In this document: positions 34,826-54,234 of the stretch, piece after piece
Layout of the letters: every line of letters starts with the position of its first letter
How positions within the stretch are numbered: the first letter of the stretch is position 1
Source: Ostreibacterium oceani
GTDB lineage: Bacteria; Pseudomonadota; Gammaproteobacteria; Cardiobacteriales; Ostreibacteriaceae
Length of the DNA: 54,365 nucleotides
Reading direction: 5' to 3'
Assembly (NCBI RefSeq): GCF_009362845.1
Contig: NZ_WHNW01000013.1
Span: forward strand, 1-54,365
The notes under the pieces: generated by a model
Databases searched by the model: none
What the model was told of the DNA's origin: nothing
What the model saw: only the letters and a program-made list of their open reading frames with translations
Position numbers and translations under genes: made by a program

Positions 34826-34860
34826 TTAGCACTATTTATATTCGTCATTTGCTTACCCCT

Positions 34861-37118: not shown

Positions 37119-37124
37119 AACCTT

Positions 37125-37421: not shown

Positions 37422-37566
37422 ATGCTTCGTGATAGGCGATGGCGCGATTATTCCAGTCCACAATCTCAGCAATCGCCATATCGCAGCATTCAAAAAAACC
37501 AAACCGATAAATTAGCGCAATATTTCCCATCGCATCCTCAATCGTCGCTAACCCTCTGAGCTGTCC
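37408..37566 (-). CDS. E': Tail chaperone extension E' (translated by -1 frameshift from E)
   Basis: 52 codons open in the -1 frame after the slippery site. They read GQLRGLATIEDAMGNIALIY and later FFECCDMAIAEIVDWNNRA, the pattern of the P2 E' extension. There is no ATG start of its own. The fusion E+E' would be about 154 residues. It is the tail assembly chaperone that works with E around the tape measure. Confidence 0.85.
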   Translation of the reverse strand, partial: GQLRGLATIEDAMGNIALIYRFGFFECCDMAIAEIVDWNNRAIAYHEASNGD

Positions 37567-37871
37567 AAAAAACCAACCAAACCCTCGCTAACGCGCTGTA
37601 AATCAGTCAAACTAAACTGATTAACTTCGCTGGCAATAATGCTTGGCGTGGCGATACGCGACAGCAGCACTGCCACCGCATCAATGTCTAATTGAAAAAC
37701 ATCTAGCAGCTTAAGCCCGCGCAAATCCCCTGCACGCGGTTCGCGCAGGGTTAGCTGGGTAATGTCATTGCCATCACGGGCAATGGGCTGACTAAGCGTG
37801 ATGGTCTTGAGTCGCGCGGTGGTCGCGTGTTCGGGTTTGTTGCCCGCGTTGTTATCGGTGTTGTTGCTCAT
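37548..37871 (-). CDS. E: Tail assembly chaperone E (P2 gpE)
   Basis: 107 residues. LKTITLSQPIARDGNDITQLTLREPRAGDLRGLKLLDVFQLDIDAVAVLLSRIATPSI is the phage tail assembly chaperone E family (pfam Phage_TAC type). A programmed frameshift near its end yields E+E'. Followed by T, preceded by tail tube FII, as in P2. Confidence 0.92.
   Translation of the reverse strand: MSNNTDNNAGNKPEHATTARLKTITLSQPIARDGNDITQLTLREPRAGDLRGLKLLDVFQLDIDAVAVLLSRIATPSIIASEVNQFSLTDLQRVSEGLVGFLDSSEG
37566..37572 (-). promoter_or_regulatory. -1 translational frameshift slippery heptamer T TTT TTG
   Basis: On the minus strand the zero-frame codons GGT TTT TTG form T_TTT_TTG, the same heptamer used by P2 for E/E'. The E stop codon lies five codons later and the -1 frame stays open for 52 codons. 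Confidence 0.85.
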
Positions 37872-37919
37872 GGTAGTACCCTCTGTTTGTCGTTATGTCG
37901 TGATTCAAGCATTGGCGCA

Positions 37920-38429
37920 TTACGCGCCGATGTTGCGTTTGTGGTCTTCTAGTCTGTCTTTGCCTTGCCATTTTTCGACCATGTTCATGATGTCAATCTC
38001 GCATAGCTCGCTACCGTTGTACAAAATACGGATATAGCTGACTTCAATCTTGATTTTGTGCTCGGTGTCCTCACCCGATTTGGCGGTCGGTAGCGACATT
38101 TCAGACAGCCGCCCTGTGATTTCAATTTCCATGGGCAGGGCTTCGCATTTGTCGTCGCCTGCGAAGCTACCCGTAAAGCGCGCGGTGATGCCGTCGTGCT
38201 GACACAGTCCAAAATGGCCAAAAAATTCAAACGACAGTCCGCCCATGGTGACTTCCATCGACAGCGCTTCTAGTCCGTGGTCGGTTTTAATCGGGGCGTA
38301 CATGCCGCCACCGCGGTACTCCTCCATTTTGCGCATAAATTGCGGTAATGTAATCTCGTTGACCTGTCCGACGAAGTTATCGCCATCTAGGAAAAAGTTG
38401 AAATGTTTAAGCTTTTTAGGTAATTGCAT
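37920..38429 (-). CDS. FII: Major tail tube protein (P2 gpFII)
   Basis: 169 residues. MQLPKKLKHFNFFLDGDNFVGQVNEITLPQFMRKMEEYRGGGMYAPIKTDHGLEALSMEVTMGG is the tail tube family of contractile P2-like tails. It lies 20 bp after the sheath gene. Confidence 0.94.
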   Translation of the reverse strand: MQLPKKLKHFNFFLDGDNFVGQVNEITLPQFMRKMEEYRGGGMYAPIKTDHGLEALSMEVTMGGLSFEFFGHFGLCQHDGITARFTGSFAGDDKCEALPMEIEITGRLSEMSLPTAKSGEDTEHKIKIEVSYIRILYNGSELCEIDIMNMVEKWQGKDRLEDHKRNIGA

Positions 38430-38449
38430 GATGCGCTCCTATTAATAAT

Positions 38450-39595
38450 TTAGTTAGACAAGATGACGGCGTATTCGGTCAAGTATTTGTCAGTGATTTT
38501 TTGTACCAGTGTTAAGTCTTCTAGCGGTGGCACGGGCGTGTAGTCATAGTGTATGACAAGCTTGCCGCCCTTTAGTTGGCTAGGCTCGTTAGCCTCGATT
38601 TCGTACCACGCGCGCCCACCGACCAAATGCCCCACCGCAGTGCGGCGGCGTAACTCGGCGTTGATCGTTGCGATAATGTCGCGAATCAACTGCACATTCA
38701 TGGGCTTATCCATAAACGCGGACAAGGTGTCGGCGATAATCTCGCGGATGGCTTGGCCCGAGCGCACGGTGGTCTCAAACGCAAATAACGGATCAGACGC
38801 GCAGGTACGCAGTCCCCACAGCCTAAAGCCGCCGCGGCTGGCAAACGTGGTGATTTGCGCCTCGTTAAGCACCGCGGCATCGTTGCTGCTATCGGTCAAT
38901 GACCAGCTTACATCGTGGCTGAGGGCGACCACGCCGTTGACAGGCAAGTTAGAAATCGGATGGTGCCAGCCCTGCTCGGCGTCGATTTTGGCGCGCATCC
39001 CCGCAGCAAGGGCGGCGGCGGGTTTTTCGACAATCGCGCCCGTCGCGGTATCGAGTCCCATTGGGTTGGGCCACAGCAATTCAATCTCGCGCTGGGCGAA
39101 GTTGTCGCGATAGAGCACCGCCTCGCTGAGTGTCGCACCGCTGGCGGTGGCGTAGGCAAAGCCGTTTAGCTTTTGCGCGGCGGATGCGAGCGCGTTGGCG
39201 ACTGCCAAGTCGTCGTCTAAAAACCCTGCTGTGAGGATTTTGGGCGTGACGCCCAGCCGTGAGTCGGCGGTCTCTAGCAGCGTGATGCCTGCGACGGCGT
39301 TCGCGCGTGTCTCGGCATCGTCTGCGCCCTCGGCAACGCGCACAATCACCAGTCTCGGTAACACTTGGTTGTGGATTTCTTCGAGGTTGGCAAGCAGCGT
39401 GCCTGTCGCGCCGACGTTATTGATCGCCGAATAAATATTGGTAAATAAGACAGGCTCACCCAGCGGGAATAGCGTCGCATCCGCATCGGGTGCAGTGCCG
39501 ACTAAGCCGATAATCTCGGTGGATTTGGGGGCGCTGGGGCGCGTGCCTGTGTTGTCTTCGATGGTTCTGATGCCATGTACGTATGAGGTGGCCAT
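38450..39595 (-). CDS. FI: Contractile tail sheath protein (P2 gpFI)
   Basis: 381 residues. The start YVHGIRTIEDNTGTRPSAPKSTEIIGLVGTAPDAD and the end YDYTPVPPLEDLTLVQKITDKYLTEYAVIL match P2-type sheath proteins. The 'VVALSHDVSWSLTDSSNDAAVLNEAQITTFASRGGFRLWGLRTCASDPLFAFETTVRSGQAI' region carries the conserved domain. Followed by tube gene FII. The contractile tail would need a baseplate, whose genes are missing. Confidence 0.95.
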   Translation of the reverse strand: MATSYVHGIRTIEDNTGTRPSAPKSTEIIGLVGTAPDADATLFPLGEPVLFTNIYSAINNVGATGTLLANLEEIHNQVLPRLVIVRVAEGADDAETRANAVAGITLLETADSRLGVTPKILTAGFLDDDLAVANALASAAQKLNGFAYATASGATLSEAVLYRDNFAQREIELLWPNPMGLDTATGAIVEKPAAALAAGMRAKIDAEQGWHHPISNLPVNGVVALSHDVSWSLTDSSNDAAVLNEAQITTFASRGGFRLWGLRTCASDPLFAFETTVRSGQAIREIIADTLSAFMDKPMNVQLIRDIIATINAELRRRTAVGHLVGGRAWYEIEANEPSQLKGGKLVIHYDYTPVPPLEDLTLVQKITDKYLTEYAVILSN

Positions 39596-39598
39596 TGG

Positions 39599-39772
39599 TT
39601 ACTCCTTATTTTTTTTGTTAGTGTCGGTTTGCTTGACTGGCTTGGTATCGGCGGTGGCAGCGCGATAGGCAGATACGGGTAATGCCGCCGTGTCAGCCTC
39701 GCCTGTCCAGCCCCGCGGACGGCGTACGCCATTAATCAATGCGGCGCGGGTGAGTGTGATGTGTTTTTTCAT
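39599..39772 (-). CDS. Small protein upstream of sheath gene
   Basis: 57 codons from ATG at 39772 with AAGGAG 6-8 bp upstream. It ends KKNKE, and its stop lies 3 bp before the sheath ATG; its last codons (AAG GAG) form the sheath ribosome site. The sequence (KKHITLTRAALINGVRRPRG) resembles the short proteins often encoded before sheath genes in P2-like phages. Too short for a firm family. Confidence 0.65.
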   Translation of the reverse strand: MKKHITLTRAALINGVRRPRGWTGEADTAALPVSAYRAATADTKPVKQTDTNKKNKE

Positions 39773-39830
39773 GGGTTGCTCCTTATTTTGGGTTAAGTTG
39801 GTCGTTGATTTTTCGTGGCAAGTTTATTGA

Positions 39831-40241
39831 TCAAGTTTTTGTATTAAGATGCGCAAGTAGTTCATCGTGGGTTTTTACCCGTCCGTAGGCAAATTTCGTC
39901 CAGCCAAACAGCGCCACCGCGGCATAAAACACCACCAGCGCAATGGATGTTTGTATGCGTCCGCGCAGCGTTTTGCATCGCCGTGTATCTCTATACATCG
40001 CCCGCGCAAACTGCCAGTCGCAATGCCAGCGCCTGCGCTCATTACCGCCTGCGGCGTAGCCGAAATCGTGGTGGCGGCACGACGCTTCAAAAAACCAGCC
40101 GAATAGCGCAGTGATTAGCCAGTCGGGCATCCAGCTCGCCCCGCAGCCGTTGCCAAACGCGGCTTGCTGGTCGGGAGTTAAGTCTGCCCACGACGGGTAG
40201 TCTGTTGGGTCGGTGTTGTTTTTTTTGTTTTGACTAAGCAT
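39831..40241 (-). CDS. Phospholipase A2-like phage protein
   Basis: 136 residues from the ATG at 40241. GNGCGASWMPDWLITALFGWFFEASCRHHDFGYAAGGNERRRWHCDWQFARAMYRD has the C-x3-HD motif and downstream cysteine and Asp of secreted PLA2-like proteins. A hydrophobic helix follows (TSIALVVFYAAVALFGW). Such proteins occur in tail regions of some prophages; a membrane-lipid role is inference. It overlaps the preceding gene by 8 bp. Confidence 0.65.
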   Translation of the reverse strand: MLSQNKKNNTDPTDYPSWADLTPDQQAAFGNGCGASWMPDWLITALFGWFFEASCRHHDFGYAAGGNERRRWHCDWQFARAMYRDTRRCKTLRGRIQTSIALVVFYAAVALFGWTKFAYGRVKTHDELLAHLNTKT

Positions 40242-40782
40242 CGGTATCACTGACCCCGCGAATCTCATCGGCACGACCCGTCTGCAACAGCCCCATCGAC
40301 TCTAGCTGATTAAGCCCGCCGACTAGCGCGGGGTGGTCTAAGTCGATATCGGCAGCCAGCTCGATTTCCTTGGCGAAGACTTTCAGCATCACCGTCGCTT
40401 CGATAGGCAATTGCGGCATATTTGGCATGTCGCCGACGTTATCGGGCGCAATGAGTAGCATTTTTTCGGGCATGGTGAGTCGCGCAAAAAACGCGTGTTT
40501 GCTAATCGTCACCGACCGCGGGGGTGGTGCGGCGGTAAATACGCCGTCCGCGTAGATGTCACCGACGGCGACAGGGCGGGCGCTGCCCTGCGCGTCAGTG
40601 GCTGGGTCGACAATGGGGTCGACAATGGTGTCGGTGATTAAGACAAAGCGTGCCAGCGCCACATCGTGGCACACGGGCAGTCGCGCGGGGTCAGTGATCA
40701 AAGCGGCGCTCACAAAAATGCTCTCGACGACGCGGCGCTCACTGTCAAGAATCGCGTAACGGTACATCGCGGGCTTAGCCAT
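40234..40782 (-). CDS. Tail fibre assembly-like protein
   Basis: 182 residues from the ATG at 40782, with GGAGG upstream. YRYAILDSERRVVESIFVSAALITD followed by VGDIYADGVFTAAPPP and a C-terminal helical region is the general layout of proteins encoded next to fibre genes (DUF4376/tail fibre assembly type). The exact family is not certain. The longer frame (to 40980) runs through the preceding gene and is rejected. It starts 2 bp before the stop of that gene ends. Confidence 0.6.
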   Translation of the reverse strand: MAKPAMYRYAILDSERRVVESIFVSAALITDPARLPVCHDVALARFVLITDTIVDPIVDPATDAQGSARPVAVGDIYADGVFTAAPPPRSVTISKHAFFARLTMPEKMLLIAPDNVGDMPNMPQLPIEATVMLKVFAKEIELAADIDLDHPALVGGLNQLESMGLLQTGRADEIRGVSDTDA

Positions 40783-40783
40783 A

Positions 40784-41359
40784 TTACGCGCCTCCATTGA
40801 GCGTGTAGGCGATTTGCGCGTACACATACGCTGATGTTTCGCCTTTGATGCTGTCCAGCTCAAAAGACGTGTTAAACGCGATACCCCCACCCGCGAGATT
40901 AAGCCCGCCGACCCCTTGCTCGAGTCGCAAGTCGCCGTTGGTGACCGCGTAAATCGTGTTGCCATCAATCCGCAGCGCAAAACCCGCCTTTACCGCGGTG
41001 GTAACTATCGACAACAGGCGTATCACGCCACTGCCGCTAACAGAAAGCTTGGTGGCGCCATTAATATACGATAGCCAAAATATTTTCTCAACCGCGCCCC
41101 CGCTGGGGGGTGTGGCGCTGGCTGCGAGCGCAGCGGTTTGCGCGCCCAGCGTCGTGACATCAGCTGCCACGTCAGCGAGCGCGGTGCTGGACGCACGGGT
41201 GGCGACATTGGCGTTAATCGCGGACGCGACCGAGGTTAGCCCTGCGCTGGTCGCCATCGCATCGATGCGTGGGTCGGTGGTCTTGAGCGTCGCATCCACT
41301 GCGGTGCGCGTTGTCTGCGCCTCACGGTTGACGGCATCTAACGTTAAAATATCAGGCAT
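40784..41359 (-). CDS. Tail fibre-like protein
   Basis: 191 residues. The N-terminal half is Ala/Thr-rich and heptad-like (LTSVASAINANVATRASSTALADVAADVTTLGAQTAAL), a coiled shaft. The C-terminal half is beta-rich (KLSVSGSGVIRLLSIVTTAVKAGFALRIDG). Such a shaft-plus-head layout suits a short tail fibre. No family assigned. GGAGGTCAAC precedes the ATG. Confidence 0.6.
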   Translation of the reverse strand: MPDILTLDAVNREAQTTRTAVDATLKTTDPRIDAMATSAGLTSVASAINANVATRASSTALADVAADVTTLGAQTAALAASATPPSGGAVEKIFWLSYINGATKLSVSGSGVIRLLSIVTTAVKAGFALRIDGNTIYAVTNGDLRLEQGVGGLNLAGGGIAFNTSFELDSIKGETSAYVYAQIAYTLNGGA

Positions 41360-41450
41360 GTTGACCTCCGTTATTGGTTGCTTTATTGGTTAATTTGTTT
41401 GTCAGGTTATTCATTGGCTCACTCATTGGCTCACTCATTGGCTCACTCAT
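41352..41450 (-). CDS. Possible 32-residue coupling peptide with MSEP repeats
   Basis: The frame begins ATGAGTGA, overlapping the stop of the 149-residue gene, and encodes MSEP three times, then NNLTNKLTNKATNNGG. It ends 8 bp inside the next gene. It spans the whole gap between them and could couple their translation, or be chance created by the repeat. Confidence 0.25.
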   Translation of the reverse strand: MSEPMSEPMSEPMNNLTNKLTNKATNNGGQHA

Positions 41451-41459
41451 TGGGTAACA
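41412..41459. repeat. 12-bp tandem repeat, three copies plus part
   Basis: CATTGGCTCACT starts at 41412, 41424 and 41436, followed by CATTGGGTAAC. On the minus strand each copy supplies ATG AGT GAG CCA. It lies at the end of the 149-residue gene. Confidence 0.85.
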
Positions 41460-41892
41460 CCTCAGACGTTTGTCCTAGGTATTGCCCCGTGAGGGCATCC
41501 CAAGTAATGGTGTGGCGCGTCGTGATACCTAAATACGTGATGTCATAACTCACCACACGACCAGCGGCGTCGCGGGCAAATTGCGTGACACGGTTTTGCC
41601 CCGCAATCGTTGCCGTCTCGGTCAGCACCACGCTGTGCGTGGCGTCATACGTCAACCCAATACTCGTCGGTAAATACGCGTCGCGGCGGTAAGCATCCAG
41701 CGCCTCGACCGTCGGGGTGATAGCGGAAAGGCTGGACTCAATCGCGGTGATCGTCGCCGCGTCCGCACCCCCCGCGGCCCATAGTGCCGCATCTAGCGCA
41801 ATAATCGTCTGACGAATGCGCTCGACATCGTGCGACAGCGCGTTATCGGCTGAGGGCAGCGGGAATTGGTAGTGTTCGGTTTCTGTAATCAT
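41443..41892 (-). CDS. Hypothetical tail-region protein
   Basis: 149 residues. HYQFPLPSADNALSHDVERIRQTIIALDAAL and the C-terminal THSVVLTETATIAGQNRVTQFARDAAGRVVSYDITYLGI are typical of small proteins between fibre genes in P2/Mu-like phages. The role is unknown. It follows the DUF4815 fusion gene by 15 bp. Confidence 0.6.
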   Translation of the reverse strand: MITETEHYQFPLPSADNALSHDVERIRQTIIALDAALWAAGGADAATITAIESSLSAITPTVEALDAYRRDAYLPTSIGLTYDATHSVVLTETATIAGQNRVTQFARDAAGRVVSYDITYLGITTRHTITWDALTGQYLGQTSEVLPNE

Positions 41893-41906
41893 TTTATTTT
41901 CTCTGT

Positions 41907-44900
41907 TTAAGCTTCGATAACCAGCACCCGCGGGTTCTCGACAAACGGGCGCGCGCCTGCGTGGCCGACCAGCTCAATCTCGACGGCGATGTTGGCGGCA
42001 TCAATCAGGGTGTCAGACTCAAAAATCAGCTCAACGCGCCCATCGTCTAGCAGCGTGTAATCGGGTAATTGGGTGAGCGTTTGCCACGTGCTGGTGTCGG
42101 GGCTCGCATCGGTCGAAGCCGCGCGCACGATGACGTTCGCGCCCTGCGGGGTAAACGCATCGACGAGTACGCGCACACGGCTATTAAGCCCTGCGGGGAT
42201 GGCGCGGGTAATGTAGCGGCCACTGGTCTCTAGCCGCCCCGTCAATACCTGCACCGTTGCCCCCAGCACGGGTGAAAAGGTGGCACTACCGATAAGCACC
42301 GCGCGTAGCGTGATGTCACCGCTAATCGCGGCGGGTAGCGCACGGTGTTGCCCGTCGGCAAAGGTCAGCACCTGCCCGTCGGGCAAGGTCGCCTCGACCG
42401 TCACGGTGGTGTCAGCCGCGGTGATTTGTGTGTTAGTTAGCACGTAAAGATCGGTGACCGCGGTGACGCTGAGCGTGCCGATATCGATCGTTTTGGCGGT
42501 GGCGACATAATCGGCGGCGTGCAGCGCAAACAATAAGTCACTGTCGTTGTGCGGCGTCCACGTCGAGGCGTTCGATGATGATAACAATACGCCGACCGTG
42601 TACGGCTGCGCGGTTATCCAGCGCTGGCGCTCGTCATCAAAGCCGCCTAGTGTGGCGACCTTGAGCGACGGGGTGGGCTCGTCGCTTAAAATCACCAGCG
42701 CATACTCAACGCCGCCGTCAAGCAGCACGGGCAAGTCGAAAGCAAATCGGGTCGCCCGCCCTGCCCCATCATTCGCTGATAAGTCGGCCGCCAGTGTCGC
42801 GGCATCGACTAGCGCCTCGGCTAAAATGGCTTGGGTCGGTAGCCCTGTTGCTGTCTCGCGGATTTGCATCCGCACCGCGCGGTCACCCACCGCGCAAAAC
42901 GACACGTCCACGGCGGTGAGCTGGGTGGCGCTCGGTAGGCTAAAGGTCTGTGCCAGTGGGTCAACGGCGCGAAAACGCGTGACCACGCGGGTGAGGTTAT
43001 CGTTAGCAATCGTGCCGTCGGCAGTAAAGACCGCCTCGCCGATTTGCCCCGAGCGCGTCGCGACCGTGACGAGCTTTTGCCCCGCAGGTACGCCCTCGGG
43101 GATGGTAAAGCGCACGTTAGCGCGACCCTTATCGTCTGCCAGCGCATCGCCGCTGGTCGCGACCGTGATGCCGTCAAACTGCACCGCGTCGATGATTTCA
43201 CCATCTCCCATCCCCGCAATCGCGGCGTTGACGGCAATCGGTCGGCAAAACTCGGCGGCTGTCTCGGTGATGCCGTCTGAGCGAAATGTCGTGCGACTAC
43301 GCGGGCCTGCCCCGATCGTCTCGGTGCCGACGACCGACTCGGTATTGACTGTCCAGCGGTCAACCGCAGGCGATAGCGTCACGGTCGGCGGGATGGGGTC
43401 AAACGCCATATACGGGTTGATTAGCATACAATCTGACGCGAGGGGCTGGGACAGTATTTCGCGGTGGGTATAGTTTAGCGTGACAGGCGCGCCTAGGTCG
43501 AAAAAATGCGCGGCGGCGGTGATGGGTAATTGTAGCCGCGCGTCTTCTATGAGTGCGGTCTGCGGTCGCCCTGCGTCGCGCAAGGTGTCAGACAACAGCG
43601 GGTCGGCGAACACGCCGTGTTTGCGCCCGTTTTCTTGATTAGACGCCGATAATTCGAGCTTATTCTGCGCGACTTGCTCGGTGAGAAAATCCAGTCGCTC
43701 GGCGTGGCGGTTGAGCGTTGACATCGACACCACGCGCACGCCGTCTTGGTAGATGATTCGTGGGGTATCGGCTGTCCAGCGCTGCTCGATGGTCGCCAGT
43801 AGTAATAAGTTGCTGGGGACTTTGGGGGGCAGCGGCGCGGTGAGTGATGCAATGCCGCGTAGCATCACAGGCTCACCACCTGCGTCTAAGCACAGGCGGT
43901 CGTGGCGCGGGATAAAGTGGTCGTAACTGGTTAAAATCGGCGTACCTGCGACCGCATCGGCGAGCGTGTAGCCAAATTCGTCGACCGCGCTCGCCTCAGC
44001 CAGCGCGATGTAGTGATACGTCACGCTATACGTCGAGCCTGCGGCTGGCTCGGCGCCTGACAGTGACCAATCGACTTTGCCGCTGGTTAGCTGATAATCG
44101 ACGCCCTGCTGGTAAGTGACACCCCCTTGGGTGACGCTGACTAGCGCGACCACGCTGGCATCGGGTAGCAAGTCTTGGCTGTTGGTGATATTGGCGTGTG
44201 TGACGGTGACGGATTTTTCGCGCGTCACGCGCACGGCGGTGATGCTTGCAATCGGGGTGCGGTTAAGGTTCACGCGCTGTTGTCCGCCGATGGCCAGTGC
44301 CGTCTCAGCATCAACACTGCCCAACTCGGGGGCGGTGTCAAATTGCGCGGGACGCGCCGCGCCGTATTCATACGCATAGCCACCAATTTGCGCGGCGCCT
44401 GCATCGATAATGTAGCGCTCTTTGCCCGCTGGTGCAGCGGTCGCGTGGACTTTTAGTCCGCGCACAATGTATTGACTACCCGTGCTGTCGCGGTCGTATT
44501 TTGCAATCGCCGACTGCACACCGCTAATATGTGGTGGTGGGGCTTTGGCGGTTAAATAGCCGTCGCGTGCGGTATAGACCGCGTAGAATTGCGGGGGGTG
44601 GCTGGGCGCGCTATTAGGTGAGCTGTTGGGCGCGTTATTGGGAGCGGCGTCGGTCGTGTTGTCGGGTGGGGTATCGGATAGCCCCCACGCCGTGGTGACT
44701 GCCAACCGCCACGCGCCTGCCTCGTTTTGCCCGCGCGTGCCAAGGGCGGGGTTGCGAAGCGTTGGGTCGTCGGCCTCGGTCACATAATAATAACTAAGCC
44801 ATACGCCAATCACGACGTCGCCGCTGGTCGCAACAAGCAGCTCACGCGACGGCACGGCGTAGATATCGCCGTCTAAGTACACATCGGCGCTATCCACCGT

Positions 44901-45215
44901 CAGCGCCCCCGTATCGGCATCTAGGCTGGCGCTGCCGCCGCGCACAATGTCGCCTGCTTTAAATATCACGTCATTGATACGGCGGTGCGCAGCGTGGGTG
45001 AGGTGCTTGCTGTTTAGCGTCCACGATAGCCCTTGGCGGTACAGCTCGCGCTGGCGCTGGGGGCTACGCAGTCCCTCAATGACGGTAAAGTCCTGTGTGG
45101 TGAGACCAATCGCGGTCTCGACCAGCGTAATCAAGCGTGGATCAACCCCGCGCAGGTTGCGCCGACTGCGGCTACCTAGTTGATAATTGGAGGCCATTGT
45201 TGAGGTTATTGCCAT
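41907..45215 (-). CDS. In-frame fusion: truncated M15 endolysin + N-truncated DUF4815 tail protein
   Basis: About 1102 residues. Residues ~1-73 are an M15 peptidoglycan peptidase (LGSRSRRNLRGVDPRLITLV, FTVIEGLRSPQRQRELYRQG, LNSKHLT). The zinc motif SxHxxGxAxD breaks after SKHLT. The next residues (HAAHRRINDVIFKAGDIVRG) enter the DUF4815 tail-protein domain part-way, continuing LDADTGALTVDSADVYLDGD and DPTLRNPALGTRG. The long remainder resembles fibre or baseplate-associated proteins. The junction (~44995) points to a deletion joining two unrelated genes. The start ATG at 45215 overlaps gene X by 10 bp; an ATG at 45197 is an alternative. Confidence 0.85.
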   Translation of the reverse strand: MAITSTMASNYQLGSRSRRNLRGVDPRLITLVETAIGLTTQDFTVIEGLRSPQRQRELYRQGLSWTLNSKHLTHAAHRRINDVIFKAGDIVRGGSASLDADTGALTVDSADVYLDGDIYAVPSRELLVATSGDVVIGVWLSYYYVTEADDPTLRNPALGTRGQNEAGAWRLAVTTAWGLSDTPPDNTTDAAPNNAPNSSPNSAPSHPPQFYAVYTARDGYLTAKAPPPHISGVQSAIAKYDRDSTGSQYIVRGLKVHATAAPAGKERYIIDAGAAQIGGYAYEYGAARPAQFDTAPELGSVDAETALAIGGQQRVNLNRTPIASITAVRVTREKSVTVTHANITNSQDLLPDASVVALVSVTQGGVTYQQGVDYQLTSGKVDWSLSGAEPAAGSTYSVTYHYIALAEASAVDEFGYTLADAVAGTPILTSYDHFIPRHDRLCLDAGGEPVMLRGIASLTAPLPPKVPSNLLLLATIEQRWTADTPRIIYQDGVRVVSMSTLNRHAERLDFLTEQVAQNKLELSASNQENGRKHGVFADPLLSDTLRDAGRPQTALIEDARLQLPITAAAHFFDLGAPVTLNYTHREILSQPLASDCMLINPYMAFDPIPPTVTLSPAVDRWTVNTESVVGTETIGAGPRSRTTFRSDGITETAAEFCRPIAVNAAIAGMGDGEIIDAVQFDGITVATSGDALADDKGRANVRFTIPEGVPAGQKLVTVATRSGQIGEAVFTADGTIANDNLTRVVTRFRAVDPLAQTFSLPSATQLTAVDVSFCAVGDRAVRMQIRETATGLPTQAILAEALVDAATLAADLSANDGAGRATRFAFDLPVLLDGGVEYALVILSDEPTPSLKVATLGGFDDERQRWITAQPYTVGVLLSSSNASTWTPHNDSDLLFALHAADYVATAKTIDIGTLSVTAVTDLYVLTNTQITAADTTVTVEATLPDGQVLTFADGQHRALPAAISGDITLRAVLIGSATFSPVLGATVQVLTGRLETSGRYITRAIPAGLNSRVRVLVDAFTPQGANVIVRAASTDASPDTSTWQTLTQLPDYTLLDDGRVELIFESDTLIDAANIAVEIELVGHAGARPFVENPRVLVIEA

Positions 45216-45466
45216 AAGTTCACCCACCGCGTGTTTATAGATGCAGGCGCAGCGGCGAGAGGAGAAGTGGGCACCACCGCGCCTGCGGGTAAAAAAATCG
45301 TCGCGAGCGACGCATCGGTCATCATCAACGCCTCGATGCCACGGGTACTGCCCGTCGCGCGGTAAAGCACACTATCTAGCGCCTCGTCCTCGTGCGCCAA
45401 TGTTGTCGTTGTTGGCTGTGTTGTTGTTGCCGTTGTCGCCGTTGCCGTTGCCGCTGTCGCTGTCAT
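45206..45466 (-). CDS. X: Tail protein X (P2 gpX)
   Basis: 86 residues. An Ala/Thr-rich N-terminus (ATATATTATTTQPTTTTLAH) precedes EDEALDSVLYRATGSTRGIEALMMTDASLATIFLPAGAVVPTSP, the tail protein X (LysM-like) pattern. In P2, X follows L and precedes the lysis genes, as here. The low-complexity N-terminus is encoded by GTTGTTGCC-type triplets. Confidence 0.82.
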   Translation of the reverse strand: MTATAATATATTATTTQPTTTTLAHEDEALDSVLYRATGSTRGIEALMMTDASLATIFLPAGAVVPTSPLAAAPASINTRWVNLWQ

Positions 45467-45479
45467 GATACCCCCTTTT

Positions 45480-46034
45480 TTAAATTAACGTCACGCGCAC
45501 GCGGGGGTTACCCTGCACCGCGCTCACGGCGGTGCGGTATTGGGCGCGCCACGTGCTGAGCTGTTCGTCGATTTTATCGGCGGCCGTCTCGCGCGCACCG
45601 AATGCGGTGGTGTCCACATCGCGGTACGTGTCAACAAGGTGTGCCTTGGCATACGAATAGACCGCGACGCGAAACCAGTGCACGGCGGCCGTTACGTTAT
45701 CAATGCTGGTGGCTTCAATGCTGGTGGCGTCGATGCTGCCGTCAATGCTGGATGCGTCGATGCTAGTATGACTGTCGGCAAGCGTCGTCACGCCCCGTGC
45801 GGTTTGGGTACGCGCCCAGCTGTCCAGCTCGGCGGTCACGGTAAACAGCGCGGTCATCAGCGCGTCACGCACGCGAGCCGTGGGGTACGTGCTGTCAATG
45901 CGGGTAATCGCGCGAAACTGCGCCATGGACACCGCGGGCCACCAGCCAGCCCCTAGGGTTGACGTCAGCGATACCGCGTCATCGACCGTGGGGTCAAGGT
46001 TGTCTGTGGTGTCTGTCGCGATAAAGCCTGTCAT
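45480..46034 (-). CDS. L: Head completion/stabilisation protein (P2 gpL)
   Basis: 184 residues. WWPAVSMAQFRAITRIDSTYPTARVRDALMTALFTVTAELDSWA is the gpL head completion pattern. A repeat (SIDASSIDGSIDATSIEATSID) is inserted in the middle and is unusual. It sits after M and before X. Confidence 0.88.
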   Translation of the reverse strand: MTGFIATDTTDNLDPTVDDAVSLTSTLGAGWWPAVSMAQFRAITRIDSTYPTARVRDALMTALFTVTAELDSWARTQTARGVTTLADSHTSIDASSIDGSIDATSIEATSIDNVTAAVHWFRVAVYSYAKAHLVDTYRDVDTTAFGARETAADKIDEQLSTWRAQYRTAVSAVQGNPRVRVTLI

Positions 46035-46224
46035 GTTGGTTGTTTTTGTCTTCGTGGTCGTCTGTGTTAAGTGGCGGTGGGGGCATGTGATGGGTTATCG
46101 GATTGTTTACTTCGCAAACCCCATGCCCGCCGCCATGGCGGTAGGCCAAGTCGGTGGTTTTTAGCGACGCGGCAAAAAAAAGACCTTATCGCACCGTGTT
46201 CGTTATTCATGTGTTCATGTGTGT
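46035..46224. other. Gap between L and M without a supported gene
   Basis: 190 bp. A palindrome CCGCCATGGCGG (about 46130-46141) and short Met-starting frames of only a few codons are seen. No minus-strand gene. Confidence 0.5.
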
Positions 46225-46995
46225 CTATTTGTCGGGCTGTCGGCTATCGTCTGCCGCCTTTTTAAGCGCCTTTTTAAGCGCTTTGATTTTGGTCTTGACG
46301 CCAATCTTGGGGTTTAGCGCGATGGCGCGCTCGTAATAATCTAGCGCCCCCGACAAGTCATCATCGGACTCGGACAGCCCGCCGCCTGCTTTCATTAGCT
46401 TGGCGCTAATCTCATCGTGCATATCAATGCCCGCAATCGCCGTCATGACGCGATCAAATAGCGCCCGCGTCACGGTGCGTGCATCGGGCGCGACCTCGCG
46501 GTAACACTCATCAATCGCCGCCTCGGCCAGTTGCTCGGCTAAGAAATCGGCAGGGCGCCTGCGAAAACGCTCGGGCAAAGTCATGTCGGCGGCGGAAATC
46601 GCGGAAAATAAGCGCAACGCGGTGTCGTAGTCGCCGATATCAATCGACCAGACAAAGACGTGCGCCACGATGTCGTCTTGGCGGTGTCCGCCATTATTCT
46701 CGCCACTATTCTCGCTGCCCCCGTCGCTAGCCATGTCACTTGATAAAATCGCGTCCACGGCCGCGTCGCTCCAATCGCGATACGTCGGTAACAACTCGCG
46801 TTTCAGCGCGGTCTTGGCCTCGGTGCCGCGTACATTCGATAGGCGTGCGTTATCCTCGGCAAGCGCCATCAGTAACGTGTCGTAAGCATCCACCGCCGTG
46901 TGCCACGAAGTACCACCCGCGCGCGCGGCGCGGTCGGCTTCAGCGTGTTGGGCGGCTAGTATGCGCTCACGATGGCGCCTAAATAAACTCGACAT
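46225..46995 (-). CDS. M: Small terminase subunit (P2 gpM)
   Basis: 256 residues. ERILAAQHAEADRAARAGGTSWHTAVDAYDTLLMALAEDNARLSNVRGTEAKTALKRELLPTYRDWSDAAVDA and DDIVAHVFVWSIDIGDYDTAL match the P2 gpM endonuclease/small terminase. It binds cos DNA with P. The start overlaps the N stop by one base (TAATG). Confidence 0.92.
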   Translation of the reverse strand: MSSLFRRHRERILAAQHAEADRAARAGGTSWHTAVDAYDTLLMALAEDNARLSNVRGTEAKTALKRELLPTYRDWSDAAVDAILSSDMASDGGSENSGENNGGHRQDDIVAHVFVWSIDIGDYDTALRLFSAISAADMTLPERFRRRPADFLAEQLAEAAIDECYREVAPDARTVTRALFDRVMTAIAGIDMHDEISAKLMKAGGGLSESDDDLSGALDYYERAIALNPKIGVKTKIKALKKALKKAADDSRQPDK

Positions 46996-48011
46996 TAGAT
47001 AAAGCTCACATTCTCGGCAATCCCGCCAAGTCCGTAGTCTTCGATAGCATAAGCGTCGTTAGACGAGGTGTAGGTTTCGAGTCGGTCACGGCGTGGATTA
47101 TCGGCAAAGTGGCGGCGCTTGCCCCCGTTTTGCGTGTAAATGGATAAGTTCGCCAGCGTCGTTAGCATCATCGTGCCATCAGGAAAGTGCGGCACGTCAA
47201 TCACTGGCAAGCCATCAATCACGCCTGTTTGGCGAATTTTCGCGAGCGCCAGCGATTCGCTGGGGCTGTGCGCTTGGTTGACCAGTCGCATGGTGTCATC
47301 GGCTTGTAAATCGCGCCCCATAATCACGCATAGCCCTGCGGCATTACGGTGCCACACATCCAGTGCGTTGTTGCGAATGTCTAGCGCGAGGGCGTGTAAG
47401 TTTTTGTAATCGCCTGTCTCGCCAATCGTAATCGAACCCGCCGCAGCGCCATCTGACATGACTTTATCGGGGGCGTCGTTGCGGTATTTTTGAATCCAGC
47501 CTGTGTTGACGTCCTGTAGCAAGGGGTTGGCGACGCGGTCGGTGTTGTTCGCCGCATTCGTGCCGTGAAACCCGATCATAATACGGTCAAGCCCGATGCG
47601 CGTGACAATGCTCGCCGTGAGCTTGTCCTCGAAATCGGGGAATTTTGCCCACTGATCAAGTAGCGCATAGCGCACGTGGGTGTCGAAGTTCGTTTGTCGG
47701 CAGTAATAGCGCGCCGCGTTTAGTGAGTGCACGTCGCGCGTCTCACGCTCCGCCGACTCGGTGTCGGTACGGCTCGCAATCGTGCTGCCGACCCCAAGAC
47801 CGATGGTCTCGCCCTCCATCTCGTCGACGCCGAAAATGTTAATCGAGCGCAAAAAGCCGTCGGACTCTTGGATGCGTTTCTCTAACGTTTGCTCGACGCT
47901 GGGCGCGGCGATAAATTTGTGCCCGCCCCGCACCGTGTCGATGCTGATGCTGTTGAGGCTGGCTTGGGTCGTAAAGTATTGTTCTAGCTTGTCTCGGGTC
48001 TCGTTTTTCAT
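46995..48011 (-). CDS. N: Major capsid protein (P2 gpN)
   Basis: 338 residues. MKNETRDKLEQYFTTQASLNSISIDTVRGGHKFIAAPSVEQTLEKRIQESDGFLRSINIFGVDEMEG and the GWIQKYR...LHALALDIRNNAL region match P2-type major capsid proteins (HK97 fold). The N-terminal ~30 residues are the part removed by the O protease in P2. Flanked by O and M. Confidence 0.95.
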   Translation of the reverse strand: MKNETRDKLEQYFTTQASLNSISIDTVRGGHKFIAAPSVEQTLEKRIQESDGFLRSINIFGVDEMEGETIGLGVGSTIASRTDTESAERETRDVHSLNAARYYCRQTNFDTHVRYALLDQWAKFPDFEDKLTASIVTRIGLDRIMIGFHGTNAANNTDRVANPLLQDVNTGWIQKYRNDAPDKVMSDGAAAGSITIGETGDYKNLHALALDIRNNALDVWHRNAAGLCVIMGRDLQADDTMRLVNQAHSPSESLALAKIRQTGVIDGLPVIDVPHFPDGTMMLTTLANLSIYTQNGGKRRHFADNPRRDRLETYTSSNDAYAIEDYGLGGIAENVSFI

Positions 48012-48113
48012 GAATAATATCCTAAATGGCTGAGTCTGTGGGTGTTCGTTGGGTTGTCTGTGGGTGTTCGTAGTGTTCGTTAGCCTTTGTTAGCAGTCGG
48101 GTTAGCAATCGGG

Positions 48114-49115
48114 TTAGCAATCGGCGCGAATAATGTCATCCCCGCCCACGCCTGCGTGCGGTGCGACGTAGTGCATGTCGGTGGATTCGACGGCGGATTT
48201 AAACGCGGTGAGTTGGTCGATGGTCGCTTGTGCCGCGGCAAAATCGCGGGTCAGCGTGTCCAGCTGCGCCGATAGCGCGCTGAGTTGGTCGATGGTCGTC
48301 TGCGGGGCGAGGTCGTCGCGCTGGTCATCACTGTCAACCGCGGTCGTGAGTGTCTCGCGATCAGCGGGCACGATGTCATCGAGCTGATTATCCGTATCCT
48401 CTAGCGCGGCGAGGCGACGCTCGTGCGACAGCACCGTGTCATTCAATAGCTCACTCAGCGTGTCCAGCGCGGCGATGACCGTGGTGTGAAAATCATTGTC
48501 GTCATTCATTGGCACAGTGGTATCGGGGGTGGTATCGGGGGTAGTGTCGGGGGCATCGGTGGCAACCGATGCACACAGTGCCGTCTCGATGACCTCCGAG
48601 TACACCCTGCCCGCGTTGTTCATGTTGTTGTCGGTGTTGCCGCTATTGCCGTTGTCTTTGCTGTCGACGGCGTGGGCCGTGGCATCACGGGCAGCGCGGG
48701 CGCTAAACTTGAGCGGCTCGGTGCCAAGGCTAGCGGGGGAATCGGTAAACGCGAGCCCCGTCAGATAGGCTTTACCCGTTTTGGCAAAGTCGGGGGTGAC
48801 CTCAATCGAGGTGTAGATTTTTTGATTGTTTTTATTCATTGCGATCAAGTGCTCGTTCGCGATGATGTCGGCGTACAGACACAGCGTGTCGGTGCCGTTG
48901 ATGGTATCGGTCTGCGTAAACACCGCCTCGACATCGCCGACGGCGGGAAACGGCCCTGCCTCGGTGACGTTACGCAAGTGCTCTATCCAGCACCGCGCCC
49001 CATAAGTCGATTGATCATAGGTGTCGGCGATATCGGTCAGCCACTCGGGCTTAATCTCGCGGCCATCGCTGACGGTGTAACCTGCGGCGGCGATGCGTAG
49101 CGTTTTTTTCTTCAT
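48114..49115 (-). CDS. O: Capsid scaffold and maturation protease (P2 gpO)
   Basis: 333 residues. The N-terminal protease has RIAAAGYTVSDGREIKPEWLTDIADTY, with His in WIEHLRN and Ser in TDSPASLGTEPLKFS, the serine protease core of gpO. The C-terminal scaffold helices follow (LSALSAQLDTLTRDFAAAQATIDQL). A short TPDT repeat (DTTPDTTPDTTVP) precedes the helical region. First gene of the leftward late operon, divergent from P. Confidence 0.92.
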   Translation of the reverse strand: MKKKTLRIAAAGYTVSDGREIKPEWLTDIADTYDQSTYGARCWIEHLRNVTEAGPFPAVGDVEAVFTQTDTINGTDTLCLYADIIANEHLIAMNKNNQKIYTSIEVTPDFAKTGKAYLTGLAFTDSPASLGTEPLKFSARAARDATAHAVDSKDNGNSGNTDNNMNNAGRVYSEVIETALCASVATDAPDTTPDTTPDTTVPMNDDNDFHTTVIAALDTLSELLNDTVLSHERRLAALEDTDNQLDDIVPADRETLTTAVDSDDQRDDLAPQTTIDQLSALSAQLDTLTRDFAAAQATIDQLTAFKSAVESTDMHYVAPHAGVGGDDIIRADC

Positions 49116-49257
49116 ATTTTTTGGCTCCTATCGGCGGGGCGGTCAAAAGTGCGCCCCGCGCGGGTGTCTCGGTGTCGGTGTCGGTGTGTTTTAGTGTTTC
49201 GTCATCGCCTTGTCGTGCCTTTAAGGTAGCTTTTTTGTCGCAAAACTCAATTATTGC

Positions 49258-49285
49258 GTGTCAAGATAAGCGCTTAACTTGACAC
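49258..49285. promoter_or_regulatory. 28-bp palindrome between divergent P and O: candidate Ogr/activator site
   Basis: GTGTCAAG and CTTGACAC flank a 12-bp centre, ATAAGCGCTTAA, which is itself almost palindromic; one base pair breaks the full symmetry. Its centre (49271.5) is ~55 bp from a likely P start (TAAAAT at 49315-49320) and ~55 bp from a likely O start (TACCTT on the minus strand, 49223-49228). This is the distance known for Ogr/Delta sites. Confidence 0.65.
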
Positions 49286-49309
49286 CTCGCCGTGTGAAGT
49301 CAATCGTTG

Positions 49310-51085
49310 ATGCCTAAAATACGAAGCATGAGCCAGCGTAAAAACCACCCAGCACCCAAAATAACCGAAGACGACCGACGGCTAAAAGCCAAAGTGTTGT
49401 ACTTTAGCGGGCATCGCATCCCGCAAATTGCCGAAGCCATCAATACGCCAGAGTCCACCGTGCGCTACTGGCACAGCACCGATAAATGGGATAAGTTTGG
49501 GCAGGCCGAGCGCGTCAACGATGCCCTCGGGGCGCGGCTGTGTCTGCTGATCGCCAAAGACCCCAAGGAGGGTCGCGATTTTAAAGAAATCGACCTACTC
49601 ACCCGCCAACTCGCGCGCGTCGAGCGCGTGCGCGCCACCCCGACCGCACCGCGAAAAGGCGAAAAACGTGGCGGCGACCGCACCAACAAAAATTACCTAT
49701 CGCCCGCGGCGATTGAACAAATCCAAACCGCCTTTATGGATAACCTGTTTGATTACCAGCAACTGTGGTACGACAACCGCCACCAGCGCAACCGCCAAAT
49801 CCTCAAGTCACGGCAAATCGGCGCGACGTATTACTTTGCCCGCGAGGCACTGGTCGATGCGCTGACCAGTGGACACAATAAGATATTTTTGTCCGCATCC
49901 AAATCGCAAGCCTACGTGTTTCGCGAGTACATCAAAGCACTTGCCATGGAAGCCGCCGAGGTCGAGCTAACGGGTGACCCCATGACGATTCGCACCGACG
50001 ACCACGAATGCACGTTTTATTTTTTAGGCACCAACAGTAAAACGGCGCAGAGCTACCACGGTGACATCTTTATGGACGAGTATTTTTGGATTAACAACTT
50101 TGACGAGTTTAAAAAGGTGGCCTCTGCCATGTCATCGCACAAACAATGGAAGCGCACCTATTTCAGCACGCCATCAGCGGTCGCCCACGAAGCGTATCCA
50201 TTTTGGACAGGGGTCGCGTACAACCGCGGGCGCAAAAAAACCGAGCATATCCATATCGATACCCGCGCGAAAACACTGGCGAGCGGAAAATTGTGCGCCG
50301 ATAACGTGTGGCGGCATCTGGTCACCGTCGAAGCCGCCGCCGATCTCGGGTGTCATCTGTTTGACCTCGGACAGCTTAAATCCGAATACGCGCCCGACGA
50401 ATACGCTCAGTTATTTATGTGTGAGTTTGTTGATGATCACGACAGTGTGTTTAGCTTTGGCGAGTTAAACCGATGTTTAGTCGAGACGCGCCGCCTATGG
50501 CCCGATGTCAAGCCCTTTGCCAATCGCCCCGTGGGTGATGATGCCGTCGCCATCGGCATTGACCCCGCCAAGTCGCGCGATGGCTGCGCGGTGTCGGTGA
50601 TTGCTTTACCCAAAGTCACGGGCGGGAAATTTCGCTTAGTCGAGCGCCTGACCCTGCGTGAGCCCTTAAGCGAAGCCCAAGCCGCCGCCATTGCCAAGCT
50701 CTGCGACAAATACGAAGTCGCGCACATGGAAATCGACGAAACGGGCATGGGGATAGCGCTGGCCGAGCGCCTGGCGAAAATCTACCCGCGCCTGCGCCGC
50801 GTGAGCTATAACCTAGAGACCAAAAATGCACTCGTCGTCAAGGCCATTGAAATCATCCGAAGCGGACGCCTAGAAGTCGACGAAGCCGCGCGCGAATGGG
50901 TGGGAGCGTTTCTCGCGATTAAAAAAACCCAGACCGCCTCGGGCAAATACCTAACGTACAAATCCGACCGCCGCGAAGATATCGGCCACGCCGACATCGC
51001 CTGGGCGACCATGCACGCCCTTGCCGTCGAGCGCATTGGATTTGACAACGGCGGGGCATCACCCGCGCGCGCGGTGGTGTTTTGA
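49310..51085 (+). CDS. P: Terminase large subunit (P2 gpP)
   Basis: 591 residues from the ATG at 49310 (or 585 from 49328). The N-terminal HTH is clear (LYFSGHRIPQIAEAINTPESTVRYWHSTDKWDKF). The ATPase domain follows: SRQIGATYYFAREAL resembles the Walker A region, IFMDEYFWI is the Walker B, and FFLGTNSKTAQSYHG-like motifs sit between them. A nuclease domain comes last (IGIDPAKSRDGCAVSV, MEIDETGMG, DIGHADIAWA). It packages DNA with M. Portal Q follows 38 bp later. Confidence 0.95.
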   Translation: MPKIRSMSQRKNHPAPKITEDDRRLKAKVLYFSGHRIPQIAEAINTPESTVRYWHSTDKWDKFGQAERVNDALGARLCLLIAKDPKEGRDFKEIDLLTRQLARVERVRATPTAPRKGEKRGGDRTNKNYLSPAAIEQIQTAFMDNLFDYQQLWYDNRHQRNRQILKSRQIGATYYFAREALVDALTSGHNKIFLSASKSQAYVFREYIKALAMEAAEVELTGDPMTIRTDDHECTFYFLGTNSKTAQSYHGDIFMDEYFWINNFDEFKKVASAMSSHKQWKRTYFSTPSAVAHEAYPFWTGVAYNRGRKKTEHIHIDTRAKTLASGKLCADNVWRHLVTVEAAADLGCHLFDLGQLKSEYAPDEYAQLFMCEFVDDHDSVFSFGELNRCLVETRRLWPDVKPFANRPVGDDAVAIGIDPAKSRDGCAVSVIALPKVTGGKFRLVERLTLREPLSEAQAAAIAKLCDKYEVAHMEIDETGMGIALAERLAKIYPRLRRVSYNLETKNALVVKAIEIIRSGRLEVDEAAREWVGAFLAIKKTQTASGKYLTYKSDRREDIGHADIAWATMHALAVERIGFDNGGASPARAVVF

Positions 51086-51123
51086 TTAGGGCGTTTTAAT
51101 TTTAAAAAAAACAGGATAACAAG

Positions 51124-52179
51124 ATGAGATTAATTGATTATTTTAGAAAAAAAGAAACCGCGAAACCTAATGTTATGACCGCCGACAGGGGGGGCAGTGG
51201 CAGTGGGCTTGGCAGTAGCTTTGGCAGTAGCTTTAGCATCGACGATGCCGTGACGGCGATTGATAAAAAAGAAATATTCGAGCACTACTGGCGCGGCGAT
51301 AATGATAAATACTATCTGCCCCCGCTGGACTGGGATGCCATCGCCAAATCGTATCACGCCAATCCGTTTCACACCTCAGCCATACAAGCCAAGCGCAACA
51401 TCTTAATCAGTACTTTTGTCGAGCATCCAAAACTCACACGCACCGAGTTTGAAAAACTGGTCACCGATTATCTCATATTTGGCAACGACTACCTGCGCGC
51501 CGTGCAAAACCGCGCAGGCCACGTGATGCGCTACGAAGCGCTCAAAGCACGCTGGATGCGCGTCGGCAAAAAAAACGACTATTATTATCTGCGCAACCGC
51601 GAGGCGGAAAAGCTAAAAGGCGACATCACGCACCACAAAAACCACGACATCAACCAAGACATCTACGGCGTGCCCGAGTACATGGCAGGCATGAATAGCG
51701 CGTGGCTGGGCGAGGCAGCGACCCTATTTCGGCGCAAGTACTATAAAAACGGGTCGCACGCGGGCTACATATTACACATCACCGAAAACCTAAGCGACCA
51801 AGTCATCGCCAGCATCGAGAGCCAGCTAGCCGCGAGCAAAGGCGTGGGGAATTTTAAAAACCTCATGGTGCATAACCCCGAGGGCAAAAAAGACGGCATC
51901 GAATTAATCCCCATCGCCGAAGTCCAAGCGCGCGATGAGTTTTATAACATCAAAACACTCACCCGCGATGACATCCTCGCCACGCACCGCGTCCCGCCGC
52001 AGCTCATGTCGGTCATCCCGACCAACACGGCGGGCTTTGGCGACGTCGAAAAAGCATCAAAAGTATTTGTTATCAACGAACTTATTCCACTGCAACAGCG
52101 GCTTAAAACGATTAACGAGATGGTCGGCGAGACGATTATCGCGTTTGGCGATTATGAATTGATTGGTGAATCAGTCTGA
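51124..52179 (+). CDS. Q: Portal protein (P2 gpQ)
   Basis: 351 residues. FSIDDAVTAIDKKEIFEHYWRGDNDKYYLPPLDWDAIAKSYHANPFHTSAIQAKRNIL is a P2-type portal N-terminus. MRYEALKARWMRVGK, INQDIYGVPEYM and PPQLMSVIPTNTAGFGDVEKASKVF follow, all conserved in the family. A short Gly/Ser repeat (SGSGLGSSFGSSFS) near residue 25 is unusual. Transcribed rightward with P. Confidence 0.95.
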   Translation: MRLIDYFRKKETAKPNVMTADRGGSGSGLGSSFGSSFSIDDAVTAIDKKEIFEHYWRGDNDKYYLPPLDWDAIAKSYHANPFHTSAIQAKRNILISTFVEHPKLTRTEFEKLVTDYLIFGNDYLRAVQNRAGHVMRYEALKARWMRVGKKNDYYYLRNREAEKLKGDITHHKNHDINQDIYGVPEYMAGMNSAWLGEAATLFRRKYYKNGSHAGYILHITENLSDQVIASIESQLAASKGVGNFKNLMVHNPEGKKDGIELIPIAEVQARDEFYNIKTLTRDDILATHRVPPQLMSVIPTNTAGFGDVEKASKVFVINELIPLQQRLKTINEMVGETIIAFGDYELIGESV

Positions 52180-52201: not shown

Positions 52202-53011
52202 TCAGTGCAACAGGCGATGGCTAGAAAAAATCCAGCACTTAACGGTGCGGGGTTTGCCTGCGGCGTTTAGAGCGAAATCGCTACACACGGGTTTTTGCTG
52301 CAAAAAACGCGGTGAGAATGGTAAATAGCGAATTAACGCCTTGTGGCTTGGCATGTCAATTTCATGCTGTTGCGCGGCGGCGATTGCTTCGTTAAGATTG
52401 ATTGCATAGTAGTCACCGTTTGTGCTGTGATCAAGGACGACCCCCAGCGCAGCTAGTGCGCTAATCGCCTGGTGAAATCGACTGTCTATCTCAGCTGCCT
52501 TTTGGCGAACGGCAGGCGCAACGCCGCCCCACTCAAAATCAACCAGTGGCGCGATGGATAAGCCCAATGCCTGCGATACCGATTCCAGTGATTGATAAAT
52601 GGCAGTGCGCAATTGTTGGCAATCGGCTTTGCCCAACTCCTTGATCAATTTTAGGCGTAATTCGTGCAGGCGAATCCCCTCTGTCATCGACGGCAATCCA
52701 TAACCGCCTGTTTTACGGATGGTCGGGAGGACTTCTGATGTTACCCATTTTCTGAATTTTATTGCTTCTTTCTTTCTGCTTTTTAATACCAATGCGTACA
52801 TTCCTGATTCATTGACAATATTAGTCCTTCCTTGACGACCTAGCGAAACGCTAGACCGTTCTTCGGGCAACACATGCTTATTTAAGGCATCAGAAATGTT
52901 CGCATAGCCTAGTGAATCGCCTATGTCTTTAGCAATAAACCACGCGGTGTTTTCTATGCTAAGTGTGCGTATTAGGTGTTTATTAAAATCAAATGATTGG
53001 ATGTTAGTCAT
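52202..53011 (-). CDS. Bro-N domain antirepressor
   Basis: 269 residues. The N-terminal Bro-N domain (IRTLSIENTAWFIAKDIGDSLGYANISDALNKHVLPEERSSV, MYALVLKSRKKEAIKFRKWVTSEVLPTIRKTGGY) is complete. The C-terminal part is helical and ends GKPRTVKCWIF, close to the C-terminal end of the primase-helicase (KKSVKCWCF). Antirepressors of this type lift lysogeny. The gene overlaps its upstream neighbour by 8 bp (ATGACTAA), which suggests coupled translation, and lies downstream of a c4-like RNA. Confidence 0.9.
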   Translation of the reverse strand: MTNIQSFDFNKHLIRTLSIENTAWFIAKDIGDSLGYANISDALNKHVLPEERSSVSLGRQGRTNIVNESGMYALVLKSRKKEAIKFRKWVTSEVLPTIRKTGGYGLPSMTEGIRLHELRLKLIKELGKADCQQLRTAIYQSLESVSQALGLSIAPLVDFEWGGVAPAVRQKAAEIDSRFHQAISALAALGVVLDHSTNGDYYAINLNEAIAAAQQHEIDMPSHKALIRYLPFSPRFLQQKPVCSDFALNAAGKPRTVKCWIFSSHRLLH

Positions 53012-53628: not shown

Positions 53629-53812
53629 CCGTCGAAAACCGCGCTCTTGCCTCCCCCGCGCCCGCGCAGAAAAAGGGTCATTTCCGCAAAGCAAAAAAAA
53701 TAAAAGGAAGTAAATAGCTGCAATAGATGCGGACTGAATATATCTGTATAAAAAGAAAGCAATTTAATCCGAAAATAAGCAATTTTTAGGCGTTAACAGA
53801 AAATCTATTTCA

Positions 53813-54110
53813 GGTGGCATAGTCGGAAAAAGGTAATTTCGGTAAGACATATCGCAAAAACCATTATTTAACCAATAAAATCAGAATTTTAATGTAATAC
53901 CAAAAAGGTAATTTTTAGGTAATATTAGGTAATATTTAGGTAATGGAAAAATTAGAGTATTGATTTATAAGAAATAAAAAAAACAAAAATATTACTCTTA
54001 TAAAAGGTAATTTATTACCTTTTCATTACCTTTTTTTATTCCGTTTTTCTCTTCTAAATCAACGACTCTTACCTTTATTACCGAAATTACCTTTTTCCGA
54101 CTATGCCACC
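53813..54110. other. Candidate replication origin: 33-bp inverted repeat enclosing GGTAAT iterons
   Basis: 53813-53845 and 54078-54110 are perfect 33-bp inverted repeats (outer end GGTGGCATAGTCGG). Between and within them GGTAAT occurs on the plus strand at 53832, 53907, 53918, 53928, 53939 and 54006. It occurs on the minus strand at 54014, 54025, 54077 and 54086. Spacing is mostly 10-11 bp. A perfect 10-bp palindrome lies at 54002-54023. The region is very AT-rich and has no gene. It is the kind of layout used by iteron-dependent origins, such as the ori/crr of P4, whose alpha protein resembles the primase-helicase here. Confidence 0.65.
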
Positions 54111-54211: not shown

Positions 54212-54234
54212 TTCAAATCCCTCTTTCTCCGCCA
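54212..54234 (+). other. attR core
   Basis: Same 23 bases as the tRNA-Ser 3' end (19921-19943) with one G-to-A change at the fourth position. It marks the right boundary of the prophage. Confidence 0.92.

Follow-up and report, generated by a model that had tools for sequence, protein, structure and literature searches.

P2 is the textbook rolling-circle phage. Its replication, as well as that of 186 and HP1, relies on the nickase gpA and on an origin located inside gene A. Many P2-like phages lack the P2 initiator, and the way in which they begin replication does not seem to have been described in the open papers covered by the search. Other mobile elements combine a dedicated primase-helicase with iterons. 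P4 encodes such an enzyme, the alpha protein, and bears short tandem iterons at 9–11 bp in two separate sites, with crr containing 120-bp direct repeats and lying directly behind alpha. In SaPI, the C-terminal domain of the initiator helicase Rep binds the iterons, binding as two hexamers having been proposed, and the origins are found directly behind the initiator gene (PMC7581432 and references therein). Iteron binding has also been assigned to the C-terminal domain of Cch2 of SCCmec (PMC7581432).

The window analysed here, a stretch of 54,365 nucleotides of Ostreibacterium oceani (contig NZ_WHNW01000013.1), contains a P2-like prophage of 34,291 bp, inserted between tRNA-Ser, on the attL side, and attR. 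At 105 bp inside attR lies a mirror-symmetric iteron block (Table 1), which is very probably the lytic replication origin of this prophage and of many related phages, bound by their primase-helicase. The prophage shares the virion family Peduoviridae with P2, 186 and HP1, whereas its replication protein is not a rolling-circle nickase and does not point to a gpA-type origin, being a member of phrog_1139 (E 1e-276, residues 7–845). A nucleoid-associated (NA37/YejK-like) protein is also encoded within the prophage, at 29986–31179.

Table 1. Features of the prophage and of its iteron block, with positions counted along the window.
Feature	Position	Strand	Remarks
attL core	19925..19943	+	19-bp repeat; 3' end of tRNA-Ser
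Tyrosine integrase	20147..21319	+	
SSB	22760..23245	-	In the replication module with the primase-helicase
Primase-helicase, 848 aa	24427..26973	-	Toprim primase fused to a Cch/SaPI-Rep-like helicase with a predicted C-terminal winged helix; proposed initiator
DnaQ-like exonuclease	27175..27849	-	In the replication module with the primase-helicase
P2-like virion and packaging genes	32654..52179	.	Homologues of D, T, FII, FI, L, M, N, O, P, Q
Bro-N/antirepressor-like protein	52202..53011	-	C-terminus is a copy of the C-terminal DNA-binding domain of the primase
P2/186-like cos candidate	53639..53667	-	Lies between the portal gene and the block; recognised by eye from comparison with P2, 186 and Dobby
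Iteron block, proposed replication origin	53813..54110	.	Mirror-symmetric; imperfect arm extension to 53806 and 54117
Left outer arm	53813..53845	+	Conserved TCGGAAAAA motif, then two tandem GGTAA (53832, 53841)
IHF-like site, left spacer	53879..53891	+	1 mismatch; position conserved in relatives
Inner left iteron cluster	53907..53944	+	Four GGTAAT (53907, 53918, 53928, 53939), 10–11-bp spacing
IHF-like site, central spacer	53953..53965	-	1 mismatch
Inner right iteron cluster	54006..54030	.	One + iteron, two - iterons
Degenerate IHF-like element	54057..54069	+	2 mismatches (by eye); in register with the conserved right-spacer element
Right outer arm	54078..54110	-	Reverse-complements the left arm perfectly; outer iterons 54078, 54087, with a further one at 54069
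attR core	54216..54234	+	19-bp repeat

An earlier note, based on reading the letters of the window, had described a 33-bp inverted repeat, ten copies of GGTAAT/ATTACC and helically phased starts, and all three were found in place. The arms form a perfect inverted repeat over 33 bp and agree at 95% over 40 nt, while the ten exact copies fall between 53832 and 54091, and the relaxed word GGTAA counts 12 copies. Across 2,000 dinucleotide-shuffled versions of the block, the mean count of GGTAAT was 0.43 and the maximum four, and no word of any kind exceeded five copies, against the ten observed. Nor does any long gene run through the block, in keeping with the note, the final ORF of 50 aa or more stopping at 53762. 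Phased short repeats and an AT-rich segment, which together characterise iteron-type origins, are both present, the block belonging to the top 1% of windows of its prophage for AT-richness; cumulative GC skew gave no origin signal at the block. The two additional copies that had been compared with a split ori and crr do exist at 21425 and 21447, but a P4-like split is not supported: no comparable pair was found in Dobby, in Smp131 or in the Halomonas phage, and an iteron pair of this kind is near chance expectation.

Relatives were retrieved through the primase with tblastn, yielding 23 phage records, ten distinct ones of which were analysed as whole genomes, each being scanned blindly for its densest repeated 6-mer. 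Retention of the block in phages with the same primase, on which the earlier proposal of an origin depended, was borne out by nine of the ten deposited records encoding a phrog_1139 primase. The block was the top or near-top cluster of the blind scan in Dobby (12 GGTAAT), Smp131 and Halomonas phage 4908, and, with other words, in PfPro (TGTCAG), phi3 (GGAACA), JFK (TGGAAG), 2F_1 (GTTAC) and ESSI2 (TCACA), whilst in Mae-JY29 it spans 289 bp with a 42-nt arm. The tenth record, ZY1, encodes a primase nearly identical to that of the Halomonas phage and has no block, being truncated, cut from gene to gene, with the relevant stretch missing. Prophages in related genomes added further words, namely TGCAA (G017), GTTAC (G025), GGTGAC (G035), YGTAAY (G254) and AGTAA (G031), and 12 IMG/VR prophages retrieved by alignment to the primase also contain a GGTAA block. 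Exact peptide patterns derived from a single primase sequence had no match in viral or genome contigs, and a nucleotide search with the block against phages was equally empty, because only the grammar and the arms are conserved. Two peculiarities of the primase genes were recorded in passing: in Smp131 the frame is broken in the deposited sequence (JQ809663.1, 25406–28098), where tblastn joins two frames, and in three IMG/VR records (G350, G407 and G421) a partial second copy of the family, comprising the helicase only, adjoins the primase gene or lies near it.

The association was also recovered in the opposite direction, with a query composed of one arm and the outer iteron pair, making no use of the primase, against IMG/VR viral contigs. 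This DNA search returned 94 contigs, and among the 92 with enough sequence, at least seven exact GGTAA were counted in 84 and the partner arm was present in 84; where both arms matched exactly, the match starts lay ~266–270 bp apart. The primase was encoded in 38 of the 48 records of at least 20 kb and, as counted from the table of records, in every one of the 35 that reach 31 kb and contain a real block. The remaining primase-negative records were fragments shorter than 30 kb, plus a single contig of 91.8 kb (G392/L245), rejected as an exception and regarded as a chance match, having one arm, three iterons and no partner arm. P2 gpA was found in one of the 48 records, 49.6 kb long and also encoding the primase, and the genomes of P2, 186 and HP1 hold no such iteron block. 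The earlier suggestion that the iterons serve as an origin for the phage's own primase-helicase is thus strongly supported by a block that is conserved with the primase and is not a repeat element.

Alignment of the GGTAA blocks revealed a common layout, starting with arms that end in TCGGAAAAA, a tandem outer pair at 9-bp spacing and a gap of ~65 bp, continuing with an inner cluster (+ + + - +), a spacer and a mirror cluster (- - - +), and closing with another gap and the mirror outer pair, for a total of 287–295 bp. The spacings of 9–12, 22 and 65–66 bp are near multiples of the helical turn, corresponding to ~10.5-bp phasing. Compared with this norm, the window block is a shorter variant of 276 bp, with 7 of its 12 iterons on the consensus grid. 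Blocks built on other words also followed the grid, as with TGCAA (G017, 13 of 15 iterons), AGTAA (G031, 11 of 13), GTTAC (2F_1, 10 of 13), the G254 word (9 of 12) and TGTCAG (PfPro, 7 of 10), against a random expectation of about 2–3, with matches anchored on one iteron and p-values indicative only; under the same anchoring, the blocks of G025 and L130 did not fit. The ~290-bp grammar is common to GGTAAT and to words unrelated to it (TGCAA, AGTAA, TGTCAG, GGTTAC).

Perfect IHF-consensus sites numbered 22 in 24 blocks, compared with 0.7 in shuffles, and occupied fixed spacer positions. Judging from these sites, IHF is likely to be involved, not universally, because the JFK, PfPro and ESSI2 blocks are devoid of them. 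In Dobby and in Smp131 no window is more AT-rich than the block, which ranks among the most AT-rich stretches in most phages tested, JFK being the weakest (top 8.5%). This widespread and geometrically conserved family of blocks probably consists of origins.

The AlphaFold2 model of the primase-helicase (pLDDT 87.5) comprises a DnaG/T7-like primase core at residues 83–289, followed by the helicase and C-terminal half, residues 300–848, whose predicted fold is closest to SCC Cch (PDB 5dgk; Z 23.5 over 460 residues) and also matches SaPIbov1 Rep (PDB 8tch; Z 22.2 over 445 residues). The earlier description of the enzyme as P4-alpha-like therefore stands for the Toprim primase region, the only part where P4 alpha could be aligned, and not for the helicase and C-terminal half, which in the model resembles Cch and SaPIbov1 Rep. 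The last ~90 residues are predicted to adopt a winged-helix topology. Folded alone, this C-terminal domain had the SaPIbov1 Rep C-terminus as its best match, with a modest score (Z 6.6, 88 residues), and gave no Foldseek match at E < 0.5; the C-terminal domain structure of P4 alpha was not among the structural matches, an absence that excludes nothing. By analogy, the C-terminal winged helix would read the iterons. The assignment is made on that ground because iteron divergence is not specific to the winged helix, iteron change tracking the C-terminal domain no more than the others and all domains correlating weakly.

Among the described systems, SaPI Rep is thus similar in being an initiator helicase with a predicted common fold over residues 300–848. 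The iterons may also lie directly behind the primase gene in the present group, as in phi3, JFK and the G035 prophage, although on the prophage map a long distance often separates block and gene; the block of the window is not directly downstream of the initiator gene, being ~6 kb from it in the circle. SaPI are Gram-positive satellites with AEP-type primases, whereas the present protein carries a fused DnaG-type primase at its N-terminus, and the mirror-image 290-bp grammar and the IHF-like sites set the present blocks apart. Cch and Cch2 differ in having no fused DnaG-type primase and a much smaller putative origin. P4 has a phage-encoded primase-helicase and closely spaced tandem iterons in common with the prophage, but its iteron is different (GGTGAACA) and two separate sites take the place of one mirror-symmetric block.

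Smp131, Dobby, phi3, ESSI2_ev239 and PfPro share the primase family, the virion type and the kind of block with the prophage, the iteron words varying by lineage, and in their deposited records the block is unannotated. The earlier note regarded a P2-like virion with P4-type replication as a hybrid design; a P2-like virion with the present primase was already known in Smp131, Dobby, phi3 and ESSI2, and the new part is the origin, whose geometry is fixed and whose word can be exchanged. The literature searched, consisting of open-licence papers, yielded no description of the block, and the passages retrieved from the Smp131 paper, in which repeats near attP were sought, do not mention it. The block provides a concrete candidate origin for phages of Pseudomonas, Stenotrophomonas, Escherichia and others, a directly testable rule in the form of a fixed geometry with an exchangeable word, natural initiator/origin pairs for studying joint specificity change, and a simple marker for annotating such prophages.

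According to the mechanism proposed, after excision the 848-aa primase-helicase would bind the iterons via the winged helix at its C-terminus. The two mirror-image half-blocks, each consisting of an outer tandem pair and an inner cluster phased at ~10.5 bp, would position two initiator assemblies head to head, with IHF-like bends in the spacers folding the half-blocks together. The AT-rich spacers would then melt, allowing the helicase domain to load, and the fused DnaG-like primase would lay primers for theta-type replication, instead of the gpA nicking and rolling-circle mode used by P2. A more elaborate version, put forward only tentatively, is that the mirror platform loads two initiator-helicase rings for bidirectional replication, following the logic of the MCM double hexamer, with the exchangeable word conferring a lineage-private specificity and the Bro-N protein acting as regulator.

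This Bro-N-type protein, bearing a copy of the primase C-terminal domain and encoded within ~1 kb of the window block, also speaks for an alternative, namely that the block serves regulation or partition as a hub (an operator array or a centromere) for a phage protein such as Bro-N and is not an origin. Small proteins with the same domain are encoded equally near the block in L268 (2815–3783), L307 (985–2004), L309 (1162–2067) and L310 (7078–7974). Such a hub is nevertheless unlikely, as the Bro-N-type protein was found at few of the loci with a block, in contrast to the constant primase, the prophage showed no sign of a ParA, and two mirror halves with AT-rich spacers are better suited to an origin. 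Both roles may coexist in the block, with the Bro-N/antirepressor-like protein as a possible second reader, the small proteins as possible replication regulators and the Bro-N copies as a possible regulatory target.

The closeness of the block to the attR core, together with IHF sites typical of attP, could also denote a distal attP arm, where accessory sites for integrase and excisionase regulate integration. This is very unlikely in view of the other phages, where the block goes with the primase and not with the attachment site: in Smp131 it is located at 33030–33354, ~2.3 kb from attP, and in phi3 and JFK it follows the primase gene and is remote from int. In the window, moreover, separate GGGGTA-type repeats flank the att core at 20059–20105 (20072) and 54147–54163 (54153), and these are probably the integrase arm sites, distinct from the GGTAAT iterons. 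A packaging (cos/terminase) site, suggested by a location at the genome end towards the portal, as for P2-like cos, is highly improbable. The block of Dobby, of the Halomonas phage and of the window is positioned between attP and a separate P2/186-like cos motif (that of the window being a candidate, probably genuine), the phi3 and JFK blocks are not beside the portal gene, and P2, 186 and HP1 have cos with no such block; the window block is not cos. Finally, despite its perfect inverted arms and AT-rich interior, a MITE or other mobile repeat landed near attR by chance, the outcome that would have spoken against the earlier proposal, is refuted by a single copy in the 2.18-Mb genome, where no target duplication was seen, and by a fixed internal grammar and primase linkage in dozens of phages.

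The interpretation of the block as a replication origin agrees with two circular P. aeruginosa records deposited as plasmids (36.7 and 47.5 kb), which contain such phages, with the primase, and in which the block keeps every grid position of Dobby; they are consistent with replication from the block and do not prove it. Counting against that interpretation, the same primase family, adjoining a Bro-N protein, is also encoded by an Azospirillum phage-plasmid (NZ_CP039641.1, 32685–36111) that has an HK97-type virion, its own RepA/ParA and no recognisable block. In a circular P. aeruginosa record (NZ_CP077991.1, 31110–41194), a phage of the present group is apparently fused to another element, which specifies Toprim and DUF927 proteins and carries a P2-type capsid gene as well as an integrase of its own, and the whole looks like a phage plus a satellite.
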